Positions 26,042 through 41,954 of a stretch of DNA of 42,815 nucleotides are shown one piece after another. Each line of letters starts with the position of its first letter. Positions within the stretch are counted from its first letter, which is position 1. The DNA comes from a virus: IMG/VR virus record IMGVR_UViG_3300025941_000046, positions 1-42,815 of that record, one strand, 5' to 3'. The position numbers and the translations under genes were made by a program. Below the pieces are notes generated by a model. That model did not search any database. It was not told where the DNA came from and saw only the letters and a program-made list of their open reading frames with translations.

Positions 26042-26070
26042 GGTATAAACAACTATACTCTTCGCGTCAA
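26042..26070 (-). promoter_or_regulatory. Array promoter 1
   Basis: Minus strand TTGACG, 17 bp, TATACC. The -35 box overlaps the stop codon (TGA) of the preceding gene. GTCA is replaced by GTAT in the spacer. Confidence 0.75.
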
Positions 26071-27077
26071 GTAGTTTCTTTCCGCTCCTGCTGCATTGCG
26101 TAGAAACTGCGAGCCAGCGGCGCGTCCGGATTGACGAGGTTCACCAGCGCGTCTCTGACCCACACGGTGCCGCCGCCGTGCATCTCGTGCCGATGGCGCA
26201 GGTGGCCGCGGCGGAGATGCGGGAGGGGGCTCGCGTGGTGCCCATCACCGGGCTCGCTGCGCCTCCGCCCGCGATTCTCGATCGCGGTCACATACGGTCC
26301 GCTGTTGACCCGCCAGTGCGCCGGGATCGCCGGCTTGCCGCCACGCACCCGGTGCTTGTTCAGCTTCTCCGGTGCCGCGATACGGTCGACCGTCACGCCG
26401 TCGGTGGCGAGCAGCAGCAGGCAGGCAGCGACCGGGTCGAACAGGTTGCAGATGACCTGCGTGTCGGTCGCGTCGCTCTTGAGCTCTTCGTTCAGCACGC
26501 CGCGGAAGATGACGCCGTCATACGTGCAGCCTGGGTTCTCCGGCTTCTTGACGATTGCGGCGAGCGCCGCATCGCACAGCATCATCATACGCTGATCGAA
26601 CACCATGATCGGCTCCGCCTCGGCGACCAGGAAGCTGTTCGGCGGATACCGGCCGCCTGAAAGTTTGTGCCAGTCGATCGAGGCGTCGACGAGATACGCG
26701 GCACCGACGACCTTCTGGGCGTTCAGGACCGGATCCTGCCACGTATGGAACAGCACATAGGGCTCGCGGAACGGATGGCCGATGTGTCCCGTGGCGAGGA
26801 GCTCGACGGCTCGGTCGGCTTCCTGGCGCAGCACCTTCGAGCTCATGTGCCCGAGATCGAACAGCCGACCGGCGTTGACCACCTCCCGGAATGTGCTCGG
26901 CATCGCGCTGAAGAATTTGGGCTCGCGTGATACCGAGCCGTCCGGCGACGTCGGGATCATGAAGGCTTCGCCGATCATGGCGTTGCGGACGCTCTCGAGC
27001 GTTGGATGCACCCACGGCCGTATGCCGCGCATCACCGCGGCGCTCTCGGCCTCGGTCATCCGATGGAGATCGCTCAT
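26067..27077 (-). CDS. Conserved phage protein with RRGH motif, function unknown
   Basis: The ATG overlaps the preceding stop; 336 residues. The C-terminal third has RVRGGKPAIPAHWRV and then SPLPHLRRGHLRHRHEMHGGGTVWVRDALVNLVN (about 284-317). The 'HLRRGHLR...VWV' pattern is known from many phage proteins, without function. The middle part is helical and contains EPYVLFHTWQDPV and PIMVFDQRMMMLCD. It is the largest gene of the leftward block. Confidence 0.6.
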   Translation of the reverse strand: MSDLHRMTEAESAAVMRGIRPWVHPTLESVRNAMIGEAFMIPTSPDGSVSREPKFFSAMPSTFREVVNAGRLFDLGHMSSKVLRQEADRAVELLATGHIGHPFREPYVLFHTWQDPVLNAQKVVGAAYLVDASIDWHKLSGGRYPPNSFLVAEAEPIMVFDQRMMMLCDAALAAIVKKPENPGCTYDGVIFRGVLNEELKSDATDTQVICNLFDPVAACLLLLATDGVTVDRIAAPEKLNKHRVRGGKPAIPAHWRVNSGPYVTAIENRGRRRSEPGDGHHASPLPHLRRGHLRHRHEMHGGGTVWVRDALVNLVNPDAPLARSFYAMQQERKETT

Positions 27078-27475
27078 GCGGCGTCCTTTCCGCGGATCCG
27101 ATAGCCGGCGGCGAAAGCCTGCTCGGCGAAGGAGCCGGCGCAGCGCTGCGTGCAGAACGGCCAATAGGCCACCTGATACTTCTCGCCGTCCCAGGTGCTG
27201 ACCTCGCTCAGCCGGCGCTCGCGCGTGCCGGCGCGCTGTTCCGGGGTCTTCCAGTTCCAGGCCGCCTCGTCCTTGAAACCGTCATCCCAGAGGATCGGCT
27301 TGTCGTCGGGACGAACGAGCACGTCGACATAGCGTTTGCTGATGACCTGCAGGTTGCCCTGGTAGCGCCAGCCCCGGACCGGCAGGTAGGTGTCCGCCTC
27401 GGTCGGTGCGCGATGGATCTGCGTGGCGTAGGGCAGGGGCTTTCCGCAGCAGGCGCAACGGGGACGGGCGGTCAT
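27074..27475 (-). CDS. Treble-clef-type zinc protein
   Basis: The 133-residue protein has CACCGKPLP (about 7-15) and WPFCTQRCAGSFAEQAF (about 105-121), together a four-Cys zinc site at the two ends of the chain. A Trp-rich central part (GWRYQGN, ILWDDGFKDEAAWNW) lies between. ATGA overlaps join it to both neighbours. Role unknown. Confidence 0.6.
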   Translation of the reverse strand: MTARPRCACCGKPLPYATQIHRAPTEADTYLPVRGWRYQGNLQVISKRYVDVLVRPDDKPILWDDGFKDEAAWNWKTPEQRAGTRERRLSEVSTWDGEKYQVAYWPFCTQRCAGSFAEQAFAAGYRIRGKDAA

Positions 27476-27723
27476 GGGGCCGCCTCGACCAGCCCGAGCC
27501 GGCGCTCGATCCGCTCCAGTCGTTGCGTGGTGTCGCTCGACCACGCTTCCATCGCGCCCATCCGGATCTCGAGACCGGCGACGCGGCCGGTCAGTCCGAC
27601 CAGATGGCCGCTTATGGTCTCGAACCCGCGCGCCATGTCCTTCGACAGCTGGTCGAGTTTCACGTCCAGCGCGCGCAGGTGGCGCAGGGTGATGTCCTCT
27701 GGTCCGTCGCTATGCTCGCTCAT
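27472..27723 (-). CDS. Coiled-coil protein, family member 2
   Basis: The 83-residue product ends with DTTQRLERIERRLGLVEAAP and is built of heptads throughout. The 'RLERIERRLGLVE' ending is common in small rhizobial and phage coiled-coil proteins. It overlaps the third family member by ATGA. Confidence 0.6.
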   Translation of the reverse strand: MSEHSDGPEDITLRHLRALDVKLDQLSKDMARGFETISGHLVGLTGRVAGLEIRMGAMEAWSSDTTQRLERIERRLGLVEAAP

Positions 27724-28001
27724 GCGATGTCCTCGATGCCGCCGACCTTGATGGCCAGCCGCTGCAGCAGGAAATGCGTCCGGGCTGCGGTGAGCTCGAG
27801 CTTGCTCTGGCGCTCGACGAAAGCATCGAGGCGCTGCTCGAAGATCCCCTGCCGGCGTTCGAGGCTGGCCATGCGGTCCTCGAGACCGCTGAATCGCTCG
27901 GTGAGCGCGAGCATGTTGCGGCGGATATCGGCGGTGTCGGCTTGCACGGCGTCGAGGCGACGGCCGATGAATTCCCAGGATACGGTCGCGGTTTCGCTCA
28001 T
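27720..28001 (-). CDS. Coiled-coil protein, family member 3
   Basis: The ATG at 27999-28001 gives 93 residues: IGRRLDAVQADTADIRRNMLALTERFSGLEDRMASLERRQGIFEQRLDAFVERQ. It is similar in design to its downstream neighbour, suggesting duplication. The two may form a hetero-oligomer. Confidence 0.6.
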   Translation of the reverse strand: MSETATVSWEFIGRRLDAVQADTADIRRNMLALTERFSGLEDRMASLERRQGIFEQRLDAFVERQSKLELTAARTHFLLQRLAIKVGGIEDIA

Positions 28002-28423
28002 GCGCTCTGCTCCTCTGCCATCTCGGCCCTTATCTCCGCCATCTCGGCGGCGAACCGGGCCGCCTCCTCGGCAGCCATCCGCTCGGCGCCGCCGAACATT
28101 AACACCTTGACGCCGGCCAGCGGCTGCATCCGGCCAGCCCACTTGCCGACCAGGGCGTTCTCCCTGGTGGAGTAGGCGCCGGCGCCGATCCACGCGTCGG
28201 CCAGCTGGCCCTCGGCCAGAGGGGACGAGACCTCCCGGCAGTAGCCGGGGACGCCGGCCTTGCGCCAGATCACGAAGCCCTTGGGCTTGCCCTTGTTCTT
28301 GCCGCTGGCCCTGACGGGCAGGGAGGCGATCGCCTCGGCGCCGAACAGCTTGGTGGCCCACTCGAGGCCGAACTCGGTCTCCAGCCCGGCCCATTTGGTC
28401 ACCAGCAATGCGAACTTGGCCAT
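27998..28423 (-). CDS. Hypothetical protein behind array promoter 2
   Basis: With AAGGAG 7 bases before the ATG the protein has 141 residues. It has LVTKWAGLETEFGLEWATKLFG, a basic segment RASGKNKGKPKGFVIWRKAG and a strongly Ala/Glu-rich C-terminal helix (ERMAAEEAARFAAEMAEIRAEMAEEQ). Unrecognised. Confidence 0.55.
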   Translation of the reverse strand: MAKFALLVTKWAGLETEFGLEWATKLFGAEAIASLPVRASGKNKGKPKGFVIWRKAGVPGYCREVSSPLAEGQLADAWIGAGAYSTRENALVGKWAGRMQPLAGVKVLMFGGAERMAAEEAARFAAEMAEIRAEMAEEQSA

Positions 28424-28445
28424 CTCAAATCTCCTTACAGGCGGC

Positions 28446-28474
28446 AATATAAGCCGCCTGACGCAGTCAGTCAA
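28446..28474 (-). promoter_or_regulatory. Array promoter 2
   Basis: Minus strand TTGACT, 17 bp, TATATT, with GTCA seven bases after TTGAC. The upstream flank is AATTAGC. The ATG of the driven gene is about 22 bases beyond the -10 box. Confidence 0.9.
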
Positions 28475-28479
28475 GCTAA

Positions 28480-28674
28480 TTATGGTTTGGCGTCAAGATT
28501 ATTCCGAGCGAGCGCCTCGCGGATCGCGTCGGTGTGGTAGGTCAGGACGTGGTCGATCGCGTCGGCTGCCGCGGTGAAGCCGGATGCGGTGCAGTCGGCC
28601 ATCAACAGGTGCAGCTTCTCCTCGATCTCGGCGAGCCGCACGGTAGCCTGCTCCCCGGTCACGGGTGCACCCAT
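28480..28674 (-). CDS. Small helical protein
   Basis: The 64-residue protein is helical (QATVRLAEIEEKLHLLMADC, AAADAIDHVLTYHTDAIREALARN). Its TAA lies 6 bases from the -35 box of array promoter 2. Unrecognised. Confidence 0.5.
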   Translation of the reverse strand: MGAPVTGEQATVRLAEIEEKLHLLMADCTASGFTAAADAIDHVLTYHTDAIREALARNNLDAKP

Positions 28675-28826
28675 CGGGCGGAGCAGTTGAGCTCCTCAGG
28701 GTCCACCATGAACCCGCCGTGATGGCAGGAAACAGCCAGCATCCCGCCGGTCAGCCAAAACGTGCATGACGTGACGTAGATCAGGACGAGGGCACCGGCG
28801 ATCGCGAGCTTGATGGTGGTGGTCAT
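28659..28826 (-). CDS. 55-residue membrane or secreted protein
   Basis: The frame begins MTTTIKLAIAGALVLIYVTS, an N-terminal hydrophobic helix, followed by CTFWLTGGMLAVSCHHGGF and a short acidic tail. Cys21 follows VTS, which is not a good lipobox, so a membrane anchor is more likely than lipidation. The ATG overlaps the stop of the next-upstream gene (ATGA). Confidence 0.5.
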   Translation of the reverse strand: MTTTIKLAIAGALVLIYVTSCTFWLTGGMLAVSCHHGGFMVDPEELNCSARWVHP

Positions 28827-29101
28827 CTCCGCGGCCGCCTCTGCACCGCCACGAGCTGCTCGCGCGTGCGCTGCACAAACGCCTCGGGATAGGGCTCGTC
28901 CGGCATCGCCAGCCCCGATCGCTCGATCACCCGGTCGACCTGCTCGTCGATGCCAGAGAACAACGCCGGCAGGTCTTGATCCTTCCAGCCATCCGGCGAC
29001 AGTAGGCCGCTGTTCGCAGCCCAGGCGCCGAGCGCCTCGAGCACCGCGGTGCGCGCGTCATCGCGCAGCCATTCGCGGCAGAGATACGGTCGATCTATCA
29101 T
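28823..29101 (-). CDS. Small hypothetical protein
   Basis: The 92-residue product has a Trp-rich first half (YLCREWLRDDARTAVLEALGAWAANSGLLSPDGW) and a helical, basic end. Its stop overlaps the membrane-protein start. Unrecognised. Confidence 0.5.
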   Translation of the reverse strand: MIDRPYLCREWLRDDARTAVLEALGAWAANSGLLSPDGWKDQDLPALFSGIDEQVDRVIERSGLAMPDEPYPEAFVQRTREQLVAVQRRPRR

Positions 29102-29104
29102 GGT

Positions 29105-29275
29105 TCAGTCCTCCTCAATCGGTTCGTCGGCCCAGTACTGGCTGTCGGTCAGGACGTCCGGCCGATAGCGCGCCAGCTTCTCCTTCCGGCAGCGATCGCA
29201 GACGCGGCACAGCGGGATGCCGCGCGCGTCGCTCTCCCACCAGGAGCTCTGGCCGGAGCCGCAGGGGCAGGTCAC
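29105..29275 (-). CDS. Small zinc-binding phage protein (CRVCDRCRKEKL)
   Basis: A GTG overlapping the upstream stop gives 56 residues. CPCGSGQSSWWESDARGIPL, CRVCDRCRKEKLARYRPDVL and QYWADEPIEED are all characteristic of a common small phage family with two Cys pairs. The zinc site probably folds the whole protein; no function is known. Confidence 0.65.
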   Translation of the reverse strand: MTCPCGSGQSSWWESDARGIPLCRVCDRCRKEKLARYRPDVLTDSQYWADEPIEED

Positions 29276-29613
29276 GCCATCCTCGCGTCGATCTGGTCGG
29301 CCAGGGTGAGCGCCCCAGCCAGGATCGCGTTGGTCTTCTCGTTGTCGCTGTAGTCGCAGATCACCTCGGTGCCGTTGCCGTTGCCGTAAACGAGGTTGAC
29401 GTGGCCCACCTTGCTCGCGGTGCTCCGGAACAGCAGGGTCTCCTCGTCGGTGGCGAACATCGCGGCGAAGACCTCGGCGCCCTTGGTGGACCCGGAAACG
29501 ACCCACTCCTCGCCGTCGTGCACGCTGATCTTGTAGCCGGCGGCCAGCGCGTCCTTGATGATCTGCCGCACGATCCGCTTCTCGGTGGCGATCCGCTTCT
29601 CGACATTGTCCAT
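29272..29613 (-). CDS. Conserved small phage protein
   Basis: The 113-residue protein has CGAGGAG before its ATG. IVRQIIKDALAAGYKISVHDGEEWVVSGST and VICDYSDNEKTNAILAGALTLADQI recall a phage family of unknown function seen in several hosts. Probably an alpha/beta fold. Confidence 0.6.
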   Translation of the reverse strand: MDNVEKRIATEKRIVRQIIKDALAAGYKISVHDGEEWVVSGSTKGAEVFAAMFATDEETLLFRSTASKVGHVNLVYGNGNGTEVICDYSDNEKTNAILAGALTLADQIDARMA

Positions 29614-29629
29614 CGGAATCTCCTCGGGG

Positions 29630-30148
29630 TTAGGCAGCGGCTTTCGCCGCCGCCTTTCTGACTGTGCCGGCCTTGGTCAGGGTCGCCTGATAGGCCAGCG
29701 CCTCGGCCTGCTTGGCCGCCTTGAACTCGGCGCCCCAGCCCTTCCGGACCATGGTGCCGGGATACTGGCCCATGCCGTATTGGCCATACTTCGCGTGCTC
29801 GGTGGTGATCATCAGCATTGTCTTGCTGTAGGGAACCATCACGCCATCCAGGCTTGACCCGGTCTGGACGGTCTCGGTGATCTCGGTGATTGGCGCGAAG
29901 TAGATCACGCCCTTGAAGAAATCATCCATCTGGACGAGGTCGCCGACCTTCAGGGTCTCGACCGGCACCTTGAGGCTCTCGGCGTAGTACTTCGCGGCTG
30001 CTGCGCCCTTGGCGGTGTAGCAGACCTTTGTGCCGTGGCACTTGAAGCACTTGGTGCCGTAGCTCTGGCAGTAGCTGTAGTTGCCGGAACCGCCGCACCG
30101 CGAGCAGCTCTGCATCTCGAAGCCCAATTTGGAAACCATCCCAGTCAT
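29630..30148 (-). CDS. DnaJ-type zinc-ribbon protein
   Basis: The ATG 8 bases after CGGAG gives 172 residues. CSRCGGSGNYSYCQSYGTKCFKCHGTKVC (about 15-43) is a paired CxxCGGSG / CFKCxG zinc ribbon. A central beta domain follows (VPVETLKVGDLVQMDDFFKGVIYFAPI, about 62-88), then a basic Ala/Lys-rich tail. Single-stranded or RNA binding is plausible. It is the only gene behind array promoter 3. Confidence 0.65.
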   Translation of the reverse strand: MTGMVSKLGFEMQSCSRCGGSGNYSYCQSYGTKCFKCHGTKVCYTAKGAAAAKYYAESLKVPVETLKVGDLVQMDDFFKGVIYFAPITEITETVQTGSSLDGVMVPYSKTMLMITTEHAKYGQYGMGQYPGTMVRKGWGAEFKAAKQAEALAYQATLTKAGTVRKAAAKAAA

Positions 30149-30174
30149 CACACTTACTCCGCTCTTACGCACGA

Positions 30175-30203
30175 CATATAATACGGTTGACTGAATGCGT
30201 CAA
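30175..30203 (-). promoter_or_regulatory. Array promoter 3
   Basis: Minus strand TTGACG, 17 bp, TATATG with a perfect TTGAC-N7-GTCAA dyad. The upstream flank ATTAAATAGC includes the TAG stop of the preceding gene. Confidence 0.9.
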
Positions 30204-30204
30204 G

Positions 30205-30387
30205 CTATTTAATGGGCTGGGCTGACTCTTTTTCGAGCTCCCGGCGGGCGATGTCGGCGAGCCTCTGCTCGTGTTCCGCCCATGCCTGATTCAGCGTTTT
30301 CGTGGTCAGCGCGCGGCGTTGAATGTCCTGTCGCTCGAAAGACCAGATGTCGTGCGAATTGCGGCGTTCGGCGGCGAAGTTGGTCAT
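30205..30387 (-). CDS. Small basic helical protein
   Basis: Sixty residues: FAAERRNSHDIWSFERQDIQ then LNQAWAEHEQRLADIARRELEKES. The stop lies in the flank of array promoter 3. The ATG overlaps the stop of the 29-residue gene (TGATG). Unrecognised. Confidence 0.5.
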   Translation of the reverse strand: MTNFAAERRNSHDIWSFERQDIQRRALTTKTLNQAWAEHEQRLADIARRELEKESAQPIK

Positions 30388-30476
30388 CACGCCATCTCCA
30401 GAGCCGAGGCTTTCCACTCGGCTTGCATCAGCAGGAAAATGCCGACCGCGGCGATCGCGGCAGCGAGGAGGAACAT
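30387..30476 (-). CDS. 29-residue membrane peptide
   Basis: MFLLAAAIAAVGIFLLMQAE begins a one-helix membrane peptide. AAAGGAG stands 7 bases before the ATG, and the sequence around it (GGAGCCGTGTGATGTT) is repeated at the start of the next-upstream gene. The stop overlaps the following start. Confidence 0.5.
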   Translation of the reverse strand: MFLLAAAIAAVGIFLLMQAEWKASALEMA

Positions 30477-30489
30477 CACACGGCTCCTT

Positions 30490-30729
30490 TCATCCGATGT
30501 AGAGGGTGGAGCCGATGACGGCCCCGAACTGGCCGGAGTAGATCTCCGCCTCCTCCGGGGTGGCGCTGGCGGGCAGGCCCTTGATCAGTTCCATGGCACC
30601 GGCCTTGCTGATCCTGACCCACTGCTCAGAGGTGCCGAACCGGACTTGCGCCAGCACCTCGCTGGCCTCCCGAACCGCCCGCTTGAACGCGGGCACGGTC
30701 ATGATGCTGATCTCGGTCTCGGCCAACAT
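30490..30729 (-). CDS. Small hypothetical protein
   Basis: The 79-residue protein has EISIMTVPAFKRAVREASEVLAQVRFGTSEQWVRISKAGAMELI, an alpha/beta pattern. Its start shares GGAGCCGTGTGATGTT with the downstream membrane-peptide gene. It overlaps the previous gene by one base. Confidence 0.5.
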   Translation of the reverse strand: MLAETEISIMTVPAFKRAVREASEVLAQVRFGTSEQWVRISKAGAMELIKGLPASATPEEAEIYSGQFGAVIGSTLYIG

Positions 30730-30986
30730 CACACGGCTCCCTTCAGGGGGTAATAGGTGCAGGACCCGGTGAAGCCCGAGGGCCTGTAACCGAACTCGAC
30801 CCCAGCCTTGACCAGCTCGTAATAGGTCGCGCCCCCATATCCGGGGAACTTGCTGCCACTCTTCACCAGCGACCACAGGAACTTCTCGCCGTTCCAGCCG
30901 GAGGTCAGGGCATACTTGAACTCGCCGCCGGCCTTCAGGATCTCCAGCGCCCTGGCGGCCCGGGGGGAGAGCTTCATGGTGGTCAT
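30729..30986 (-). CDS. Small protein behind array promoter 4
   Basis: The 85-residue product (CGGAG upstream) contains KLSPRAARALEILKAGGEFKYALTSGWNGEKFLWSLV and YYELVKAGVEFGY, compatible with a small winged-helix fold. Function unknown. Confidence 0.5.
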   Translation of the reverse strand: MTTMKLSPRAARALEILKAGGEFKYALTSGWNGEKFLWSLVKSGSKFPGYGGATYYELVKAGVEFGYRPSGFTGSCTYYPLKGAV

Positions 30987-31013
30987 GGGAAATACTCCGT
31001 CCTTACAAAGCGG

Positions 31014-31042
31014 AGTATAAGTTACCTGACCTATTGCGTCAA
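31014..31042 (-). promoter_or_regulatory. Array promoter 4
   Basis: Minus strand TTGACG, 17 bp, TATACT, with GTCAG in the dyad position. The flank TTAAATGTC includes the TAA stop of the preceding gene. The leader contains the short inverted repeat ACTCCG...CGGAGT. Confidence 0.9.
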
Positions 31043-31047
31043 GACAT

Positions 31048-31608: not shown

Positions 31609-31616
31609 GGTGTGGC

Positions 31617-31645
31617 CATGTATGGCGGTTGACGGGATATGTCAA
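31617..31645 (-). promoter_or_regulatory. Array promoter 5
   Basis: Minus strand TTGACA, 17 bp, TACATG with a perfect TTGAC-N7-GTCAA dyad and flank TTAAATAGC. Only 8 bases separate the -10 box from the ATG, so the transcript would be almost leaderless. Confidence 0.85.
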
Positions 31646-31683
31646 GCTATTTAACCCGGACCAGGGGTAAGCTGCCGCTACCG

Positions 31684-31830
31684 ATGAAGCTCGACCACGA
31701 GCTGCGATGCACGGCGTGCCGCGGCGATGCGACGGCCGGCTACGTCGCGGAACACAGCCCGCTGGTGCGGCCAGAGGAGCGGCTCTGCCTGCGCTGCTAC
31801 GGCGTGAGGCGGCAGGCGGTGAAGCGATGA
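31684..31830 (+). CDS. Small zinc-ribbon protein, first gene of the packaging operon
   Basis: I choose the ATG at 31684: 48 residues, with CTACRGDAT (about 9-17) and RLCLRCYGVRR (about 33-43) forming a CxxC...CxxC ribbon. The ribosome site is weak. It overlaps the next gene by ATGA. Confidence 0.5.
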   Translation: MKLDHELRCTACRGDATAGYVAEHSPLVRPEERLCLRCYGVRRQAVKR

Positions 31831-32283: not shown

Positions 32284-32301
32284 AAGCACAAAGGGAAATA
32301 C

Positions 32302-34106: not shown

Positions 34107-36955
34107 TCCGCCTGCTGCCGCGCCTGCGCCGGCCGACTGAGCCGCCGCGGCAGCGCGTCGAGCCGACCGTGACATGGCCACAGCGTGCGCCGATGAGGGT
34201 GTCGATCTCCGCGCTCGCCGCCAGCCTCAGCAAGCCGGCGCCGCCTGAGCCCAAGATCAACCCGTTCCAAATGCCTCGCTATCCCAAGGGCGTCCTGCCG
34301 AACGGCCGCACCGAGCTGGCGATGGACGAGAACACGACGCAGATCGTCGCCTCGGCCTGGGACTTCGGGGCAGCCCTTCACGGGCTTTGGGCCGAAGGCA
34401 TAGGGTTTATGGGATATCCCTACCTCGCGGAGCTCAGCCAACGCGCCGAGTATCGCCGCGCCTCCGAGGTCATCGCCGAGGAGATGACCCGCAAGTGGAT
34501 CAAGCTGCGGGCGACCGGCGACGACGACAAGGCCGACAAGATCAAGGTGCTGGGCGATCGGCTCGAGCAGTTCCATGTGCGGGACGTGTTCCGCGAGGTG
34601 CTGGAATTCGACGGCTTCTTCGGACTCGGCTTCGTCTACCTGGACTTTGGCGACACCGACACCGACGAGCTCCGCACGCCGCTGGTAGCCTCGCCGGAGA
34701 AGATCGGCCATCACCGCCTCAAGGCAATCCGCGCCGTCGATCCGACCTGGACCGCGCCGAATCGCTACGACGCCCGCGACCCGACCTCGCCCACGTTCTA
34801 CCGGCCGCAGTCGTGGTTCATGATGGGGCGGGAGATCCACACGACCCGGCTGCTGTCCGTGGTCTCGCGTCCGCTGCCCGACATCCTGAAGCCCGCCTAC
34901 AATTTCGGCGGCTTGTCGCTGTCGCAGCTCATGAAGCCCTACGTCGACAACTGGCTGCGCACCCGCCAGAGCGTCTCCGACCTGATCAACGCGTTCACCG
35001 TGTTCAACCTCTCGACGAACCTCGAGGGGCTGCTGACCGGCGCCGGCGGTGAGGCGGAGAACCAGCGCCTGGAGATCATGACCAACATCCGCAGCAACCG
35101 CGGGATGCTGGTGACCGACAAGGCCACCGAGGAGCTCAAGAACATCAGCGCGCCGTTGGGCACGCTCGACAAGCTGCAGGCGCAGAGCCAGGAGCAGATC
35201 TGCTCGGTGATCGCCGTGCCGCTCGTGAAGTATCTCGGCGTGACGCCATCGGGCCTGAACGCCAGCGCGGACGGCGAGATCCGCGTGTTCTACGACGGAA
35301 TCAAAGCGAGGCAGGAGAAGGTGTGCACCGACAAGGTCCGCACCATCTTGCAGATCCTGCAGCTCGACGAGTGGAGCGAGGTCGATCCGGAGATCGACTT
35401 CGAATGGGTGCCGCTCTGGGAGCTGGACGAGGCGTCCGCGGCGACCGTGCGCAAGACCAACGCCGACACCGACGCCGTGCTGGTCGAGGTCGGCGCGATC
35501 GACCCGGACGAGGTGCGCCAGCGCATCGCCGCCGAGCCGGAAAGCCCCTATGCCGGGCTCGACCTCTCCAAGCCAGCCCCGGGCCCGCCCGCAGCCGCCG
35601 GCATGGAAGGCGAGATGCCGCCGGAGGGCGGCCAGGACATCGATCCGGCGACCTCGCACGCCATCTTCACCGCGCTGCGCGACCACGGTGTGGCGGATCC
35701 GACGGCCGAGGCGCTGCTCGAAGCGCTGCAGCTTGGCGGTGCCGGCGAGGACGTAGAGCAGGCGCTGCTCGCCGCCCTGCGCAGCGGGGACGATGCGGGC
35801 GTAGGCAAGGCTCTGATCGCTGCGTTGGGCGGGACCGACAGCGTCTTCCTCGAGGCGCTCAAGGCGAACGACGACCAGCCCTTCCAGAAGACGCTGATGG
35901 GCGCGTTCGCGCAGGACGCTGCCGAGTTCAAGGAGTCCGACCATCCGCGCGGCCAGCCGGGCAATGCCGGGCAGTTCGGTCCGGGCGGCGGCGGCAAGGG
36001 AGCTGGCAAGAAGAAGGCCGGCGGAGAGGGGAAAGAGCAGGCCGGGCAGAAGGGCGCCGAGGGCGCCCCAGCCGCGGGCGAGGCAGCGAAGAAGTCGCCG
36101 GCTTCGAGCCTGATGCCGAACCCGAAGAGGTATTCCGAGGCGGAAGCTCGCGAGCTCGGCGCCAAGATCGCGGCCTCGGTCGGCGCCACGCAGGCGGTCA
36201 GCGAAGCCCGCCGCAAAGTCCTGGCCATGAACGGGGCGCAGAGTATCGATCCGGTCGAGAAGGACGGCCATATCGACGCCGCCGGCGAGTTCACACCCGA
36301 GCGGGCTGCGCTGCATGACAAGCTGCTGAACGACATCTTCACGCCCGAGGCTATCGAGCGGGCGCTGCCCAGGAAGGGGGAAAAGCCGGTGGTCGTCGTG
36401 CTCGGCGGCCGCGGCGGATCCGGCAAGTCGTGGCTGACCGACACAGAGAAGGGCGGACCGGTCGACAAATCGAAGTTCATCCTGATCGACGCCGACCACT
36501 TCAAGGGCGAGCTGCCGGAATATCAGGGCTGGAACGCCGCCCAGCTGCACGAGGAAAGCGACCTCCTGGTCAGGCGGGCGGAAGATCGGGCGCGGAACCT
36601 CGGGCTGAACATCGTGCACGACGCCACCCTGAAGTCGGCCAAGAGCATCAACGAGCGGGTCGATCGCTACGCCAAGGACGGTTACGACATCCACGGCCAC
36701 TACATGCACCTGTCGCCGGAGATGGCGACCGAGCGGGCGACCAAGCGGTTCGCCAGAGGCCAGGAGAAGACCGGCAAGGGCCGGTTCGTGCCGCCCGAGA
36801 TCATCCTGGGCAACACCGACAACGAAAAGAACTTCGATGCGCTGATTCCGCTGTTCAAGGAATGGAGCGTGTTTGACAATAGCGGCGACGCCCCCAGATT
36901 TGTGGATGGCAGCAGGGACTATGGCGGTGCCAAAGGACAAGGACGCAAAGACTGA
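34103..36955 (+). CDS. Portal protein (DUF1073 type) fused to a zeta-toxin-like kinase
   Basis: The ATG overlaps the terminase stop, giving 950 residues, about twice a normal portal. Residues about 60-470 are a DUF1073-type portal (GFMGYPYLAELSQRAEYRRA, LSLSQLMKPYVDNWLRTRQS, LEIMTNIRSNRGMLVTDK, VPLVKYLGVTPSGLNASADGE). A helical, Ala-rich part and a linker with HPRGQPGNAGQFGPGGGGKG follow. Residues about 755-945 are a P-loop kinase of the zeta/PezT family: VVVVLGGRGGSGKSWL (Walker A), LIDADHFKGELPEYQGW, LHEESDLLVRRAEDRA, NIVHDATLK and GKGRFVPPEII. The kinase could be carried in the virion vertex and act on nucleotide sugars after cleavage; that is inference. Confidence 0.8.
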   Translation: MIRLLPRLRRPTEPPRQRVEPTVTWPQRAPMRVSISALAASLSKPAPPEPKINPFQMPRYPKGVLPNGRTELAMDENTTQIVASAWDFGAALHGLWAEGIGFMGYPYLAELSQRAEYRRASEVIAEEMTRKWIKLRATGDDDKADKIKVLGDRLEQFHVRDVFREVLEFDGFFGLGFVYLDFGDTDTDELRTPLVASPEKIGHHRLKAIRAVDPTWTAPNRYDARDPTSPTFYRPQSWFMMGREIHTTRLLSVVSRPLPDILKPAYNFGGLSLSQLMKPYVDNWLRTRQSVSDLINAFTVFNLSTNLEGLLTGAGGEAENQRLEIMTNIRSNRGMLVTDKATEELKNISAPLGTLDKLQAQSQEQICSVIAVPLVKYLGVTPSGLNASADGEIRVFYDGIKARQEKVCTDKVRTILQILQLDEWSEVDPEIDFEWVPLWELDEASAATVRKTNADTDAVLVEVGAIDPDEVRQRIAAEPESPYAGLDLSKPAPGPPAAAGMEGEMPPEGGQDIDPATSHAIFTALRDHGVADPTAEALLEALQLGGAGEDVEQALLAALRSGDDAGVGKALIAALGGTDSVFLEALKANDDQPFQKTLMGAFAQDAAEFKESDHPRGQPGNAGQFGPGGGGKGAGKKKAGGEGKEQAGQKGAEGAPAAGEAAKKSPASSLMPNPKRYSEAEARELGAKIAASVGATQAVSEARRKVLAMNGAQSIDPVEKDGHIDAAGEFTPERAALHDKLLNDIFTPEAIERALPRKGEKPVVVVLGGRGGSGKSWLTDTEKGGPVDKSKFILIDADHFKGELPEYQGWNAAQLHEESDLLVRRAEDRARNLGLNIVHDATLKSAKSINERVDRYAKDGYDIHGHYMHLSPEMATERATKRFARGQEKTGKGRFVPPEIILGNTDNEKNFDALIPLFKEWSVFDNSGDAPRFVDGSRDYGGAKGQGRKD

Positions 36956-37145
36956 GAAGCCCGCCACCGAGGGCGACGGGCAGGTGATGGGCTATCCGGC
37001 GGAATACTGGGAGAACGATGTGCCAGACCTGGGCATCGATCCAGCAAAGCGCTATCGCGCGGCGGACCGCGAGAAGATGGATAGGCAGCTCGACGCCGAT
37101 CGCAAGGTGATCGAAGACATCCGCCGCAGGCGCGGGGAAAGCTAG
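36921..37145 (+). CDS. Small protein overlapping the kinase end (antitoxin or head-accessory candidate)
   Basis: The ATG at 36921 with AGGGA just upstream gives 74 residues and overlaps the portal-kinase gene by 35 bases. PAEYWENDVPDLGIDPAKRYRAADREKMDRQLDADRKVIEDIRRRR is mostly helical. A small helical gene coupled to a zeta-like kinase recalls epsilon antitoxins, but I see no sequence match to epsilon. Confidence 0.5.
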   Translation: MAVPKDKDAKTEKPATEGDGQVMGYPAEYWENDVPDLGIDPAKRYRAADREKMDRQLDADRKVIEDIRRRRGES

Positions 37146-37381
37146 CGGAGCATCGCCTTAGCGTCGGCGACGGTGTAGCCGGCGAGATCCTCGATAGTCT
37201 CGATGGCGTGCTCGGCCATCCCCTTCAGCAGCGCGAAATTGGCGTTGATCACGGCACGCTCGCCGTGGATCGCTGCCAGCTCGGGATCCGGGGTGGGCCC
37301 TCGATCCGCGCAGCTGCACATCGTCTCGAGGGTGAGCAGCAGCTTCTTGAACACGAAGGCCGACGGGACATTGCTGGCCAT
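37142..37381 (-). CDS. Small helical protein
   Basis: Seventy-nine residues: FKKLLLTLETMCSCADRG, then ELAAIHGERAVINANFALLKGMAEHAIETIEDLAGYTVADAKAML. The stop overlaps the end of the convergent + strand gene. Unrecognised; last gene of the leftward cargo island. Confidence 0.5.
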   Translation of the reverse strand: MASNVPSAFVFKKLLLTLETMCSCADRGPTPDPELAAIHGERAVINANFALLKGMAEHAIETIEDLAGYTVADAKAMLR

Positions 37382-37383
37382 GT

Positions 37384-37566
37384 CTACCCCCTCAGGGCCT
37401 TGGCCGCCTCGATAGCGTCGTCCGCCATCTTGGCTATGACCGGGTTCTTGTTGGCACCGTAGTGCGCCACGGCCGCGATCTTCTCGAGCGCGTCCATGAG
37501 GTTGGTGATGGTCATCCCCATGATGGCGACGAGCGCCACGTCGTGGGGCTTCGGGTTCGTGTTCAT
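37384..37566 (-). CDS. Small helical protein
   Basis: The 60-residue product VALVAIMGMTITNLMDALEKIAAVAHYGANKNPVIAKMADDAIEAAK is a compact helical peptide without clear membrane character. The ATG overlaps the stop of the next-upstream gene. Confidence 0.5.
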   Translation of the reverse strand: MNTNPKPHDVALVAIMGMTITNLMDALEKIAAVAHYGANKNPVIAKMADDAIEAAKALRG

Positions 37567-37760
37567 GACGCACCTGCTTTCTCGACATAGGCGACCATGG
37601 CAGCGCCGACGGTCTCCTCGGGCTCTCCGGCCAGGATCATCGGTCCGGCCATCTTGAACAGGCCGCCGATCTTCAGGACGCTGATCTGCATTCCGGAGCA
37701 ATACCTGCCGTAGATCTTGGTGATCGCGGCATCGAGCTTCTTCGGGGACAATTTGGTCAT
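37563..37760 (-). CDS. Small hypothetical protein
   Basis: Sixty-five residues with AAAGGAG before the ATG. TKLSPKKLDAAITKIYGRYCSGMQISVLKI then MAGPMILAGEPEETVGAAMVAYVE. Unrecognised. Confidence 0.5.
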   Translation of the reverse strand: MTKLSPKKLDAAITKIYGRYCSGMQISVLKIGGLFKMAGPMILAGEPEETVGAAMVAYVEKAGAS

Positions 37761-37772
37761 CGTCGGTCTCCT

Positions 37773-37958
37773 TTATTCTGGCATCATCACGTAGAACACT
37801 GGGCCAAGCCGCGGTTGAATAACCTCGCCGCCGACCTTCTCCGCAGCGCGCGCAGCCTGCGTCTTGTTCGCGAAGGTCTTGGCGAAAACGCCGGTGGGGG
37901 TGGATTTCGCGAGAACCACGACCCCGCTGTTGAGTTTCGAAGTCAGAATGGCGGTCAT
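37773..37958 (-). CDS. Small conserved phage protein (FANKTQAARAAEKVG)
   Basis: The 61-residue protein has a strand-helix-strand pattern: GVFAKTFANKTQAARAAEKVGGEVIQPRLGPVFYVMM. The 'ANKTQA...KVG...FYV' pattern is frequent in small phage proteins of unknown function. AAAGGAG precedes the ATG. It is the first gene behind array promoter 6. Confidence 0.6.
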   Translation of the reverse strand: MTAILTSKLNSGVVVLAKSTPTGVFAKTFANKTQAARAAEKVGGEVIQPRLGPVFYVMMPE

Positions 37959-38006
37959 AACTGGTCGCTCCTTTCGGGAGGTTGGTCAGTCCTGGTTGTC
38001 AGGGGC

Positions 38007-38024
38007 GCCGGGAACTCTCCCGGC
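38007..38024 (-). promoter_or_regulatory. Leader hairpin behind array promoter 6
   Basis: GCCGGG and CCCGGC with a 6-base loop, 6 bases downstream of the -10 box, hence at the 5' end of the transcript. A similar hairpin follows array promoter 7. Confidence 0.6.
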
Positions 38025-38030
38025 AAGGTT

Positions 38031-38059
38031 TATATAGCGCGCCTGACCGTAGCAGTCAA
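38031..38059 (-). promoter_or_regulatory. Array promoter 6
   Basis: Minus strand TTGACT, 17 bp, TATATA, with GTCAG in the dyad position and flank TAAATAGC. Confidence 0.9.
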
Positions 38060-38074
38060 GCTATTTAGAGCCAA

Positions 38075-38197
38075 TCAATCGCAGTCCCAGTGCGTGAGCA
38101 GGCCGAATTCGTAGTGGGTCGCGCAGTGCTTACCGGGTGGCGGTTCGCAGGCTGCGAGCAGCAGCGCGGTGGCCAGGATGGCCAGGATCGTCTTCAT
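38075..38197 (-). CDS. 40-residue lipoprotein
   Basis: The frame begins with an almost ideal lipoprotein signal, MKTILAILATALLLAAC (Cys17). The mature part is only 24 residues: CEPPPGKHCATHYEFGLLTH followed by WDCD, with three Cys. AAGGAG lies 9 bases before the ATG. Small phage lipoproteins of this kind, such as T5 Llp, block receptors against superinfection. That role is inferred from size, signal and its place in a cargo island. Confidence 0.65.
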   Translation of the reverse strand: MKTILAILATALLLAACEPPPGKHCATHYEFGLLTHWDCD

Positions 38198-38223
38198 CGG
38201 TGGTTACTCCTTGGAGGTTGGGG

Positions 38224-39117
38224 TTAAGCGGCGAGCGCCAGTGGCGCCCAGTCATTGGCCGGCTTGGCGAAGGGAATCGCCTCGACGGCGTGGATCGACA
38301 TCGCGGCGACTGCCGGGGCGATGATCTTCTCGGCGTTCTCGACGAACACCGACCAGAGCTCGTAGTCGCCCTCGTCCTCGAGCAGCCACGCGAACGCTTC
38401 GGTCAGGAAGTTCGCGGCGACCGCCCTGTTCTTGGTGATCGGCCGTCCCTGACCGACCTGGGCCCGGATCCGGGCTGCGTCGGTGGTCACCATGGTGCCG
38501 GGAGAGGCCTCGCTGATCACCGCGAGGAGTGCCGCCAGCTTCTTCTTCGCGGCAGCGATCCCGAGCAGGTGCAGCCGCTTCGGCTTGATCTCGCCGCCCA
38601 GCAGGTTCGCCAGCTCCGCGACGGAGAAGGCCGACTGATTGGACGGGACGGAGACGGTGAAATCCTCGGTCCCCAGGATGGCTGCCGCGGCCCGGTAGGC
38701 CTCGTAGGGCGGCAGCTCGCCCTTCTGCACCGGCACCAGCGCGTCGTGTCCGGCGCCGATCACGAGCTCGACCAGCCCCTTCCACTCGGCGAGCAGCTTC
38801 AGGCTCTCGGCCTGATTGCCGATCACGTCGGGCATCACGATGTGCATCCTGGTTCCGGGCGCCTCGTGCACCAGCTTGGTGATGGTCGCCGCGACCTTGG
38901 GCCAGTTCATCGGCTCGCCGTGGGTGCAGGCGGTAAACGCGCCGCTGTCGACGAACACCTCGCCGCCCCGGCTCGCATACTCGATCATCATGTCCCACGC
39001 GGCACCGCCGACGGTGAGCTCGGCCAGGGAAACGCCGATCGCCGATCCGGCGACGATGTAGCCCCGCATGATGTTGGGCGCACTCGCGCCCGACCGATAA
39101 GAGGTCGTCACTAACAT
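38224..39117 (-). CDS. tRNA-guanine-transglycosylase-like protein (DpdA-type candidate)
   Basis: The 297-residue protein resembles TGT-fold base-exchange enzymes. It has VFVDSGAFT (about 55-62, the conserved Asp-Ser-Gly), VMPDVIGNQAES (about 94-105, second Asp), LVPVQKG (127-133), VSVPSNQSAF (155-164), RLHLLGIAAAKKK (181-193) and TTDAARIRAQVG (211-222). In phages the DpdA branch of this family inserts 7-deazaguanines into DNA rather than tRNA. No preQ0 synthesis genes are in the window, so the base would come from the host. Family is inferred from motif order; substrate is open. Confidence 0.65.
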   Translation of the reverse strand: MLVTTSYRSGASAPNIMRGYIVAGSAIGVSLAELTVGGAAWDMMIEYASRGGEVFVDSGAFTACTHGEPMNWPKVAATITKLVHEAPGTRMHIVMPDVIGNQAESLKLLAEWKGLVELVIGAGHDALVPVQKGELPPYEAYRAAAAILGTEDFTVSVPSNQSAFSVAELANLLGGEIKPKRLHLLGIAAAKKKLAALLAVISEASPGTMVTTDAARIRAQVGQGRPITKNRAVAANFLTEAFAWLLEDEGDYELWSVFVENAEKIIAPAVAAMSIHAVEAIPFAKPANDWAPLALAA

Positions 39118-39141
39118 CGGAAGTCTCTCGGGAAAGTGGAA

Positions 39142-39160
39142 GCCGGGAACCGTGCCCGGC
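39142..39160 (-). promoter_or_regulatory. Leader hairpin behind array promoter 7
   Basis: GCCGGG and CCCGGC with a 7-base loop, starting 6 bases downstream of the -10 box, in front of the TGT-like gene. Confidence 0.6.
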
Positions 39161-39166
39161 GAGTCC

Positions 39167-39195
39167 TATGTAATACGCCTGACTGTAAGCGTCAA
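39167..39195 (-). promoter_or_regulatory. Array promoter 7
   Basis: Minus strand TTGACG, 17 bp, TACATA, with GTCAG in the dyad position and flank TTTAATTAGC. It drives the TGT-like gene. Confidence 0.9.
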
Positions 39196-39219
39196 GCTAA
39201 TTAAATAGCGGCGGGCGAT

Positions 39220-39534
39220 TTAGTTCCGGAAGTAGGCCATGCCGTAAGGCGTGCAGCCGGCCAGAGGGTCGGGGTCGAAGATGTTGCCCCGCTTGCCCTT
39301 GGCGGGGGCCTTCCAGCCGGCGGACTTCAGCAGGTCGCCGGTGGTCTGATCGATGAAGCCGTAGGCGCTCCGCGAGCTGCCCTGGGCGAGCACGATTCTG
39401 GCGTATTTGGTCGCCGGCTCGATGGTGATCGTCGGCGGGGTGCCGACGTTGGCGGCCTTCTGCCAATGAGCGTGGACGAAGCCCTGCAGCTTGGTCTGGA
39501 AAGCGGACAGGTCGGCGGTGGTGACTTTGTTCAC
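39220..39534 (-). CDS. Small conserved phage protein (DLLKSAGWKAPAKGKRGNIFD)
   Basis: A GTG preceded by AAAGGATTCA gives 104 residues. The C-terminal GFIDQTTGDLLKSAGWKAPAKGKRGNIFD is a pattern found in many small phage proteins: a beta-hairpin, then 'K-x-x-WK-x-PA...RGNI'. Function unknown. Its ribosome site lies in a sequence repeated in front of the LPD29-like gene. Confidence 0.65.
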   Translation of the reverse strand: MNKVTTADLSAFQTKLQGFVHAHWQKAANVGTPPTITIEPATKYARIVLAQGSSRSAYGFIDQTTGDLLKSAGWKAPAKGKRGNIFDPDPLAGCTPYGMAYFRN

Positions 39535-39547
39535 GGTCTGAATCCTT

Positions 39548-39805
39548 TCAGGTTGCCATACCGCAGAGGTATTCGTTGGCGCGCTTGCCGAGGTCGTTGG
39601 CCTTCGCGGCCTCTGCGGCCTCTGCGTTGGCTTTCATCGCGGCCAGGATGAAGTGCTCCTTCACTCCGGTCGCCGCGGAGATCGCGTCCGAGCTCATGCG
39701 CATGGCGATCAGTTTGTTCAGCGCGGTGCTCTCGTCGGCCGGGGTCGCCTTGCGGCCGAGGAACAGGCCTTCCGTCAGCACTTTCAGCGCTTCAGCGTAG
39801 GTCAT
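39548..39805 (-). CDS. Small helical protein behind array promoter 8
   Basis: The 85-residue product (CGGAG upstream) is helical: YAEALKVLTEGLFLGRKATPADESTALNKLIAMRMSSDAISAATG. Unrecognised. Confidence 0.5.
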   Translation of the reverse strand: MTYAEALKVLTEGLFLGRKATPADESTALNKLIAMRMSSDAISAATGVKEHFILAAMKANAEAAEAAKANDLGKRANEYLCGMAT

Positions 39806-39830
39806 CGTCAGACTCCGTTCTTGCAGGCAG

Positions 39831-39859
39831 AGAATATCCGGCTTGACCATATGCGTCAA
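39831..39859 (-). promoter_or_regulatory. Array promoter 8
   Basis: Minus strand TTGACG, 17 bp, TATTCT with a perfect TTGAC-N7-GTCAA dyad and flank GTTAAATAGC. Confidence 0.9.
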
Positions 39860-39883
39860 GCTATTTAACGGCGGACAGGGGAT

Positions 39884-40474
39884 TTATTTGCCGCCAGCGC
39901 AGCAGTGGGTCTTGTGCGCCGCGGCCATGATCTCGCGCTCCATGTCGAAGCCGCGGGTCTTCTCCTGGTCATAGGTCAGGGTCTTCACGTAGGCGTCGCC
40001 GTAATCGCTCACGACGATCTCGACCACCTCGACCGGGTATCCCTTGGCGGCCAGCCTGTCGCGCGCTCTGGTCAGCAGCGCGGGGCTGATCGTCCGATTG
40101 CAGAAAATGAAGTCCGCGCCGAAGTGCACCAGCTTCGCATCCGGATCCGGCATCCAATTCCGCACCGGGCCGTAGACGCCGCCGCTGCCGGCCGTGCCCT
40201 CGTCGCTGGCGGTCATCGCCGTGCCATCCGGTGACAGCCAGGAATCGCGGCCGAACTTCAGGTCGATCATGCCGTCGAAGCCGCCGCCCTGGAATTGCTT
40301 GGCAACCGGCTCGACCGCGGCGGAGCAGGGACCGTCGGTCCACCTCACGTCGATCGACGCGCCGCCGGCGTATTTGTCGGACTTGACCGAGAACTTGACG
40401 CCGGGGAAGGCCTTCTTGAGCGCGCCCCGCACCAGCTTGGCGGTCTCGGTGACGGAAACGTAAGTCGACTTCAC
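39884..40474 (-). CDS. LPD29-like domain protein
   Basis: A GTG overlapping the upstream stop gives 196 residues. ETAKLVRGALKKAFPGVKFSVKSDKYAGGASIDVRWTDGP (about 10-49) followed by FDGMIDLKFGRDSW fits the LPD29 domain, first defined in large polyvalent proteins of phages and conjugative elements. Such domains probably travel into the host with DNA or modify host processes. The C-terminal half is helical and ends HKTHCCAGGK. Confidence 0.6.
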   Translation of the reverse strand: MKSTYVSVTETAKLVRGALKKAFPGVKFSVKSDKYAGGASIDVRWTDGPCSAAVEPVAKQFQGGGFDGMIDLKFGRDSWLSPDGTAMTASDEGTAGSGGVYGPVRNWMPDPDAKLVHFGADFIFCNRTISPALLTRARDRLAAKGYPVEVVEIVVSDYGDAYVKTLTYDQEKTRGFDMEREIMAAAHKTHCCAGGK

Positions 40475-40821
40475 GGGATGAATCCTTTCAGGTTGCCGTA
40501 GCGGCCCAGATAAGCGCCGGCCCGGCTGGTCGGGTTGTTCGGAAACTCGTGCGCGATGTGCGCGTCCTCCGCGTCCTGCTCATCGGCGAACAGCGGCATA
40601 TCGGCGGGCACCTCGAACACCTGATATTTCCTGTGAGCGGTCTCCCGGCAGATCACGACCTTGCCGTTCCACTCCCAGACCGCCACGACCGGGCTGTAGG
40701 CGTAGGGGCTCGGAATCGGATCAGTCTGGAACCGCGCCAGCCATGCGATTGGCTCCTCGCTCGCTTCCGCGATCCACTGCGCGTGGCCGGCGTACGACCG
40801 AATGGTCTTGATGCACTTCAT
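40471..40821 (-). CDS. Hypothetical protein
   Basis: The 116-residue protein has GGAGG upstream. WIAEASEEPIAWLARFQTD, VVAVWEWNGKVVICRETAHRKYQVFEVP and DAEDAHIAHEFPNN are well-patterned but unknown to me. Its last nine codons are also a copy of the start element used by the 39534 gene. Confidence 0.55.
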   Translation of the reverse strand: MKCIKTIRSYAGHAQWIAEASEEPIAWLARFQTDPIPSPYAYSPVVAVWEWNGKVVICRETAHRKYQVFEVPADMPLFADEQDAEDAHIAHEFPNNPTSRAGAYLGRYGNLKGFIP

Positions 40822-40834
40822 CGAATGTCCTCCT

Positions 40835-41095
40835 TCACAGTCCGTGCTCTGGGCCCATGCCCAGCTTCTTGCAGGCCTCGTAAGCGGCGCTTGTCTCGGC
40901 CTCGACCTTCCTCTGGCCCATCGGGGTCACGAACACCGAGCCGAGGTAGCGGTCTTCTTGCGCGAGCCTGAAGTTGTAGGCTGCCAGCGCCTTCTTCTGT
41001 GCCGCGGTCAACTTCACCTTCGGGGCGAAGGTGGACTCGGCTTTCTCGGCAGCCTTCAATGTCGCTGCCAGCTTCTTCCACTGCTCGTTGGTCAT
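40835..41095 (-). CDS. Small basic helical protein
   Basis: Eighty-six residues, Lys/Ala-rich: NEQWKKLAATLKAAEKAESTFAPKVKLTAAQKKALAAYNFRLAQEDRYLGS. GGAGG inside the end of the upstream gene serves as its ribosome site. Unrecognised. Confidence 0.5.
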   Translation of the reverse strand: MTNEQWKKLAATLKAAEKAESTFAPKVKLTAAQKKALAAYNFRLAQEDRYLGSVFVTPMGQRKVEAETSAAYEACKKLGMGPEHGL

Positions 41096-41098
41096 CGC

Positions 41099-41245
41099 TC
41101 AGCCTCCCATCCACGCGTTCAACCAAGAGGTCGCCCACAGCCGGGCGAACGCAGTCCCGACGACGTAGGGGTTGGCGCTCAGGGGAGCCCCGGCCAGGAA
41201 AGCGGCCTTGCCGCCCTTCATCGCGGCGAACCTCATTGCAATCAT
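41099..41245 (-). CDS. 48-residue Rmf-like peptide
   Basis: AGGAGG stands 5 bases before the ATG. The product runs KGGKAAFLAGAPLSANPYVVG then TAFARLWATSWLNAWMGG, an A-x-x-x-G...NPY...W...W pattern like the ribosome modulation factor motif in the 15790-16386 protein. It is the first gene behind array promoter 9. The Rmf resemblance is a pattern match only. Confidence 0.5.
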   Translation of the reverse strand: MIAMRFAAMKGGKAAFLAGAPLSANPYVVGTAFARLWATSWLNAWMGG

Positions 41246-41293
41246 CGGAACCTCCTGGGGAAAGCCGAGGAGCCACTCTCACCCGGCACTCTC

Positions 41294-41322
41294 TATATAA
41301 TCCACATGACGAATATCGTCAA
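41294..41322 (-). promoter_or_regulatory. Array promoter 9
   Basis: Minus strand TTGACG, 17 bp, TATATA, with GTCAT in the dyad position and flank ATAATCCGC. Confidence 0.9.
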
Positions 41323-41351
41323 GCGGATTATGCGGTGATTCGCAGAAAAGT

Positions 41352-41594
41352 TCAGGCGCCCACCGCCGCGTAGTAGCCGGGAGCCTTGACGCTCCCGTAT
41401 CCGAACTTCGCCTCGCTGCCGGTGAAGAACATGATCGCGAACCTGATCCTGGCCACTTCGGCCGTGGTCAGCGTCTTCGGCAGCTTGGCATCGATCGGCA
41501 TCTTCCAGTTCGGCTTCGGCGCGACGAGGGCGAATGCCGCCTCGAGCTCCTCCTGGGTGTAGCCGCCCATCAGGGTGTTGGGGTCGAAGGCCAT
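41352..41594 (-). CDS. Small conserved phage-type protein (GGYTQEELEAAF)
   Basis: The ATG after AAAGGAG gives 80 residues: GGYTQEELEAAFALVAPKPNWKMPIDAKLP, then VARIRFAIMFFTGSEAKF. This combination recurs in small proteins of alphaproteobacterial phages, with no known function. Confidence 0.55.
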   Translation of the reverse strand: MAFDPNTLMGGYTQEELEAAFALVAPKPNWKMPIDAKLPKTLTTAEVARIRFAIMFFTGSEAKFGYGSVKAPGYYAAVGA

Positions 41595-41617
41595 AGCTTT
41601 GTCTCCTTTCGAGAGGG

Positions 41618-41848
41618 TCATAGAAGAGGGAGGCCGGCGACGGCCTCCGCCTCGGTATCGGCCTGCCGGATGATCTCCGGCCCGCCCGTCACCGGGTCAG
41701 TGAGGTGGGCGTCCGCGACCAGCCAGCACACGGCATCGAACCGAGTGTGGATCGCCCAGACGGCATACCGCCGGTATTCGCCGAACAGCCGCTTCTTGGA
41801 AGCGGCCTTGCCGGCCAGGGCGGGGACGTTGGAGAGGGGAGCAGCCAT
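41618..41848 (-). CDS. Small hypothetical protein behind array promoter 10
   Basis: TAGGAGG before the ATG gives 76 residues: KRLFGEYRRYAVWAIHTRFDAVCWLVADAHLTDPVTGGPEIIRQ. Aromatic-rich and probably alpha/beta. Unrecognised. Confidence 0.5.
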   Translation of the reverse strand: MAAPLSNVPALAGKAASKKRLFGEYRRYAVWAIHTRFDAVCWLVADAHLTDPVTGGPEIIRQADTEAEAVAGLPLL

Positions 41849-41925
41849 AGAGGCCTCCTAGAGAGGGGTTTCGGTCATCTTGTCTGGGCTGCCGCGCCCG
41901 GAACCTCAGTCCTGCCGACACACTC

Positions 41926-41954
41926 TATATATAACACCATACGGGGCACGTCAA
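41926..41954 (-). promoter_or_regulatory. Array promoter 10
   Basis: Minus strand TTGACG, 17 bp, TATATA, with flank TTTAATTCGC. GTCA in the dyad position is replaced by GTAT. Confidence 0.85.

Follow-up and report, generated by a model that had tools for sequence, protein, structure and literature searches.

Why should ten nearly identical promoters stand before unrelated small genes in a single phage genome? The question is raised by positions 1 to 42,815 of IMG/VR virus record IMGVR_UViG_3300025941_000046, the 42,815-nucleotide stretch that we refer to as the window. An original prediction, made from these letters alone, had described ten leftward promoters with a dyad over the −35 box, and had proposed a modular system under one regulator, perhaps expressed from a prophage in the manner of morons. 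The ten sites are confirmed and lie far above chance. On balance, and with moderate confidence, we read them as ten host-type promoter-operators that would be silenced by one dimeric phage repressor and would drive early host-takeover or anti-defence genes. The sites are as follows, the higher coordinate being in each case the position of the minus-strand TTGAC.

26042–26070, minus strand: P1 promoter with a degenerate putative operator (GTAT); predicted to drive 25991–24556, including the XRE gene at 24873–25091.
28446–28474, minus strand: P2 promoter and dyad; predicted to drive 28423–26067.
30175–30203, minus strand: P3 promoter and dyad; predicted to drive 30148–28480.
31014–31042, minus strand: P4 promoter and dyad; predicted to drive 30986–30205; also in contig L002.
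31617–31645, minus strand: P5 promoter and dyad, with a weak −10 box; ATG at 31608, leaving nearly no leader; also in L002.
38031–38059, minus strand: P6 promoter and dyad; leader hairpin; predicted to drive 37958–37142; also in L002.
39167–39195, minus strand: P7 promoter and dyad; predicted to drive 39117–38075.
39831–39859, minus strand: P8 promoter with a weak −10 box; the inner dyad pairs at 7 of 7 positions; predicted to drive 39805–39220.
41294–41322, minus strand: P9 promoter; the long-arm dyad pairs at 12 of 17 positions; predicted to drive 41245–39884.
41926–41954, minus strand: P10 promoter with a degenerate dyad (GTAT); predicted to drive 41848–41352.

Each site consists of TTGAC, a sixth base, 17 bp, and a TATA-like −10 hexamer that starts with TA everywhere except P8, where it starts with GA. 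All ten were located where they had been claimed, the weakest −10 boxes being TACATG at P5 and GATATT, or TATTCT if shifted by one base, at P8. The predicted GTCA is present at +12 in eight sites and is replaced by GTAT in the outermost two, P1 and P10; since the variant also begins with GT, these two bases are kept in 10/10. Comparable TTGAC/TATA sites from other loci carry GT at the matching place in 0/44 cases. Seven of the ten sites fit TTGAC-N17..19-TATA, for which a genome of 65.5% G+C would give 0.1 matches by expectation. TTGACN7GTCA with at most one mismatch gave 23 matches, compared with 5.5 ± 2.6 in shuffled sequence (0/100 shuffles as high), and the exact pattern gave 12 matches, its reversed control 0. 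Alignment of the ten boxes yielded a profile whose leave-one-out scores ranged from 29.8 to 53.5 at nine sites, with P1 the weakest at 15.4; the best score in ten simulated genomes, used as background, was 19.2, so that P1 alone is a weak member of the family. Shuffles, reversed pattern and simulated genomes together rule out that the motif is equally frequent at random positions, one of the outcomes that the original prediction had named as its refutation.

The dyad is longer than had been claimed. It extends to a 33-bp inverted repeat, TAA-N3-GC-N-TGAC-N7-GTCA-N-GC-N3-TTA, which runs at each site from 24 below to 8 above the TTGAC coordinate.

31621–31653, no strand assigned: the 33-bp palindrome, as exemplified at P5.

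Complementary pairs are formed in 10, 10, 8 and 8 of the ten sites at the TGAC/GTCA positions, in 8 and 7 at GC/GC, and in 6, 10 and 9 at TAA/TTA, with complementarity near chance at the positions between these blocks. The AT flank upstream of the −35 box thus mirrors the first bases of the −10 box. Where both columns of a pair are conserved in at least eight of ten sites, 7/7 are complementary. The best dyad centre gave 98 matches at half-length 16, a value equalled in 0/5000 trials in which the columns after the −35 box were permuted; at half-length 10 the same test reached the observed symmetry once. The 7-bp core and the positions between blocks vary among the ten sites, which makes it more likely that the arms are under selection than that they are the product of recent copying alone. 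The TGAC and TAA blocks, about 10 bp apart, would share one face of the helix. Such an arrangement suggests that a symmetric operator overlaps a sigma-70 promoter.

In the mechanism that we propose, AT-rich flank, TTGAC −35 box, 17-bp spacer and TATA-like −10 box would make each site a host sigma-70-type promoter, and the 33-bp operator would be built over its −35 box, spacer and the start of its −10 box. A single phage-encoded dimeric DNA-binding protein would occupy all ten and block RNA polymerase, so that the units would be held silent in the lysogen, or else turned off at a later stage of infection. In its absence, upon DNA entry or induction, all units would fire together through the host polymerase and yield small early host-takeover or anti-defence proteins. 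Silence in the lysogen would follow from the position of the dyad over the −35 box if it is the lysogeny repressor that binds there.

Two proteins encoded in the window had been put forward as the regulator.

14378–15133, minus strand: CI-like repressor, candidate regulator (phrog_2328, E=7e-6).
24873–25091, minus strand: XRE candidate regulator of 72 residues in the P1 unit, HTH_31-like (E=4.8e-4, below the curated cut-off).

Neither could be tied to the sites. The CI-like protein had no relatives in the viral contigs searched and its single-sequence fold model was too poor for use; its gene is divergent from a helix-turn-helix neighbour at 15206–15793. The XRE protein gave a helical model with a predicted local distance difference test (pLDDT) score of 72. 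Its gene belongs to the P1 unit, whose promoter is the most degenerate copy, an arrangement that would suit a repressor escaping its own control. Two alphaproteobacterial regulators, considered as binders, were set aside: LexA sites are direct repeats, GTTC-N7-GTTC, and CtrA sites read TTAA-N7-TTAA, both unlike the palindrome arms. The phage is probably temperate and its host perhaps alphaproteobacterial.

Several observations weigh against the proposed repression. The CI/Cro-like intergenic region at 15134–15205 holds no copy of the element, and a relative of the phage, G042, encodes a 54% homologue of the XRE protein yet has none of the ten-site promoters. Half of the inner right arm is missing at 2/10 sites, and the mirrored AT flank could be a coincidental UP element. 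No integrase was found among the proteins scanned, from a record that may be partial, so the CI-like gene, together with ParB-like and Erf matches, is what speaks for a temperate life.

The position of the sites relative to their neighbours bears on how the units are read. They had been described as immediately following the stop of the unit before them, which applies to P1, whose −35 box overlaps the upstream stop codon, and to P2–P4, within 2–6 bp of it. It applies loosely to P6–P9, about 15–29 bp past the preceding stop. P5 and P10 are exceptions and face genes that run rightward; the AT flank of P10 overlaps the start codon of the minor-head gene (41964, plus strand). Short leaders with a purine-rich ribosome-binding site follow P2, P3, P4 and P8 (CGGAGT in three of the four), and a P5 transcript would be almost leaderless. 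P6, P7, P9 and P10 have longer leaders able to form a 5' hairpin, clearly more stable than shuffles only at P6 (z=−3.7). Terminators were not above chance level, so the units probably read into one another, and Rfam and tRNA scans gave no matches.

The two blocks flank the terminase-portal genes as had been described, and comparison with related phages revealed that they differ in history.

24556–31608, minus strand: block 1, a leftward module of small genes (P1–P5 units), at an ancestral position shared with G042.
34103–36955, plus strand: portal protein, between the blocks, with a C-terminal zeta-toxin-type domain.
37142–41848, minus strand: block 2, a leftward insertion of small genes (P6–P10 units) between the portal operon and the minor-head gene; absent from G004 and G042.

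In G004, whose portal is 88% identical over the N-terminal half and whose minor-head protein is 78% identical, portal, one small gene and minor-head gene are contiguous and block 2 is missing. The 71.7-kb relative G042, whose end repeats measure 127 bp, is likewise without block 2 and has a leftward module between its early rightward genes and the terminase. That module contains homologues of 26067–27077 (32%) and 29105–29275 (54%), without the ten-site promoters. From these comparisons we infer that block 1 is an old module that gained the promoter and block 2 an insertion that brought it.

The promoter family is restricted to this lineage in the collections searched. The proposed scan of related phages found the motif in the near-identical contig L002, which has P4–P6 in the same order, and not in G004, G007, G042 or the other portal relatives examined. 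Pattern scans of viral contigs gave isolated matches, with at least two distinct sites only in L002. The strict element, AGCTTGAC-N7-GTCA-N7-TATA, had no match in 385 genomes drawn from the bacterial class of a Rhodopila metagenome-assembled genome in which a related portal is encoded. Within the family of this Rhodopila genome, a search for a prophage of the same kind returned only portals of about 37–52% identity. Two single matches are recorded for completeness, both at about chance level: the full palindrome together with a sigma-70 consensus promoter (TTGACA-N17-TATAAT) in a viral contig of 160 kb (L224, 2188–2220), and a promoter-like match, TTTAAATAGCTTGACGATGTAAGTCA, before a small gene of an AT-rich phage (L001, 220–244).

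Two further relatives have leftward genes of their own. G007 (portal 69%) has 17 of them upstream of the terminase, most of the small ones (L085, 1–7300) lying behind a repeated hairpin and a AACAGAGGACACC-type leader before the ATG, with no TTGAC promoters. In G005 (portal 52%, end repeats of 122 bp), three genes run antisense between the portal and the next virion genes (L087, 1–1750), the position of block 2. Each stands behind a near-identical TTGACGG-AGTACAG-TATATAAACA promoter, unlike those of the window, and one of these units encodes the anti-restriction protein ArdC. These parallel units under another promoter indicate that the same design arose with different sequences. No clear dyad was detected in the three promoters, and the palindrome is therefore not general.

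The cargo proteins are mostly orphans and mutually unrelated, paralogy being limited to two adjacent, weakly similar small proteins (27472–28001) and one short weak match outside the cargo. By pattern scan, 38224–39117 and 26067–27077 had no other viral relatives, a relative of the latter having surfaced only via L258. Homologues of the 39220–39534 product (DUF7717) occur in cyanophages, in phages of Caulobacter and in a jumbo phage of Agrobacterium, and 39884–40474 encodes LPD29, a domain of large polyvalent proteins. For 29272–29613 (phrog_5680), homologues lie close to the ends of the genomes in Pseudomonas phages VCM and PaP1, and within the terminal sequences in Caulobacter phage CcrPW; phage genome ends are a frequent location of early genes. 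Several of the phages with cargo homologues belong to virulent groups. The known cargo families, which recur in large phages, favour early lytic roles over host-benefit morons.

This bears on the proposal that the units are morons, accessory genes expressed from the prophage by constitutive or lysogen-active promoters, a strong promoter having been copied along with its cargo and the dyad being a by-product. Block 2 fits in part, as a lineage-specific insertion antisense to virion genes and placed between genes adjacent in G004, and an antisense position with an own promoter is typical of accessory loci (PMC7067206). Block 1 belongs to the ancestral module and shows no such insertion. Own promoters are present, but terminators occur only at chance level, the palindrome is conserved beyond what a promoter needs, cargo families recur in large phages, and the comparable G005 unit carries ArdC. 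We consider the moron explanation unlikely for the system as a whole.

The mirrored AT flank could also be read as the −10 box of a rightward partner, so that overlapping, back-to-back promoters fire in both directions. The reverse strand does score high on the motif at some sites (35.3 at 41306, plus strand; 27.3 at 39179, plus strand), and TA occupies the −10 mirror position in 9–10 of 10 sites. The rightward −10 boxes are nevertheless poor at 17-bp spacing (TATGCG, TAATGG, TAACCC), nearly all without the final T, the rightward −35 box is mostly CTGAC, and rightward genes follow at P5 and P10 only. Known bidirectional promoters share a −10 box (PMC12825309), whereas none is shared here, making this arrangement improbable.

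Slightly less probable again is that a host regulator reads the dyad and the phage units respond to host physiology. The −35 and −10 boxes are host-like, and the element is placed where a host repressor could act. Against this, the strict element, which may miss host sites, is unmatched in the bacterial genomes scanned, and the other viral contigs scanned yielded no cluster of these sites; its absence from both these genomes and the portal relatives makes the element look phage-specific rather than a host operator. Least probable by our estimate are recombination sites for swapping cargo units (tyrosine-recombinase-type cores or Erf homology, with promoter function secondary), which would account for the conserved inverted arms with their variable 7-bp core at the borders of units, for the unrelated cargo and for the encoded Erf-type annealing protein, but not for the conserved −10 box and 17-bp spacing, unneeded for recombination, nor for L002, which keeps the same order, no alternative arrangement having been seen.

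Coordinated repression by one phage protein is therefore the explanation that we retain. A more tentative and, taken as a whole, doubtful extension is that phages of this portal family use the gap between portal and minor-head gene to dock antisense units with anti-defence roles, each lineage having its own promoter brand (33-bp palindromic here, TTGACGG-AGTACAG in G005) and one lineage-specific repressor controlling an exchangeable arsenal. The differently branded G005 units at the same position suggest an insertion site that merits a survey for anti-defence genes. The window offers a putative regulon of ten natural promoter-operator variants, two of them half-operator variants, before uncharacterised small genes with a possible early role against host defences. 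The identity of the repressor would reveal how a phage governs scattered early genes through a single switch, and further such genes can be sought with the palindrome as query.

Three features outside the promoter units were also observed. The C-terminal domain of the portal is a zeta-toxin-type kinase (Pfam E=9e-24), and the G004 portal ends instead in an ADP-ribosyltransferase-type domain (E=8e-10), indicating exchangeable toxin-like tails. The terminase large-subunit frame at 32861–34106 is broken near 33224 by an indel relative to the near-identical contigs L002 and L003, either an assembly error or a real lesion. At 19–1599 a 526-residue protein matches DUF2807 (auto-transporter adhesin head).

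The most likely mechanism, coordinated repression by one dimeric phage protein, is of a kind already known from SPbeta and other phages. In the Bacillus phage SPbeta, the 15-bp SPBRE motif (SPbeta repeated element) is dispersed in about ten copies over promoter regions, chiefly those of genes whose function is unknown, and is bound in lysogeny by one master repressor, MrpR (PMC10516654). The ten sites likewise form a set of near-identical, phage-specific motifs in promoter regions, restricted to one lineage among the relatives examined and the sampled genomes of one bacterial class. Unlike the 15-bp SPBRE, whose regulator is known, they carry a 33-bp palindrome over the −35 box, spacer and −10 start. 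The SPbeta regulator has a tyrosine-recombinase fold (PMC10516654), which calls for caution in guessing a regulator from helix-turn-helix annotation. Cluster A mycobacteriophages have 20–30 stoperators, repressor sites dispersed genome-wide and oriented with transcription, which show no dyad symmetry and lie mostly outside promoters (PMC6550527). The theme of dispersed repressor sites is alike, whereas all ten sites here are symmetric and promoter-embedded. The start-associated sequence (SAS) of Cluster K mycobacteriophages is a 13-bp element at the ribosome-binding-site position, 3–7 bp ahead of the start codons of numerous small non-structural genes that share one orientation, and about half of its copies are accompanied by inverted repeats (PMC3203893). 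Both are repeated elements before small genes of the same orientation, and SAS, unlike the ten sites, is not a promoter. In the T4-type PeSL mobile cassettes, repeated early promoters separate swappable small genes; we know of no operator dyad described for them, and the likeness extends to the hairpin-capable leaders of P6, P7, P9 and P10, with the reservation that only the first clearly exceeds its shuffles. Block 2 resembles prophage accessory loci (PMC7067206) in its antisense position within virion genes and its own promoters, and the system differs from them in its multi-gene units without terminators, its shared operator-like palindrome and cargo held in common with large phages. What is new here is the 33-bp palindrome over the promoter core, its presence both in an old module and in an insertion, and the comparable arrangement in G005.

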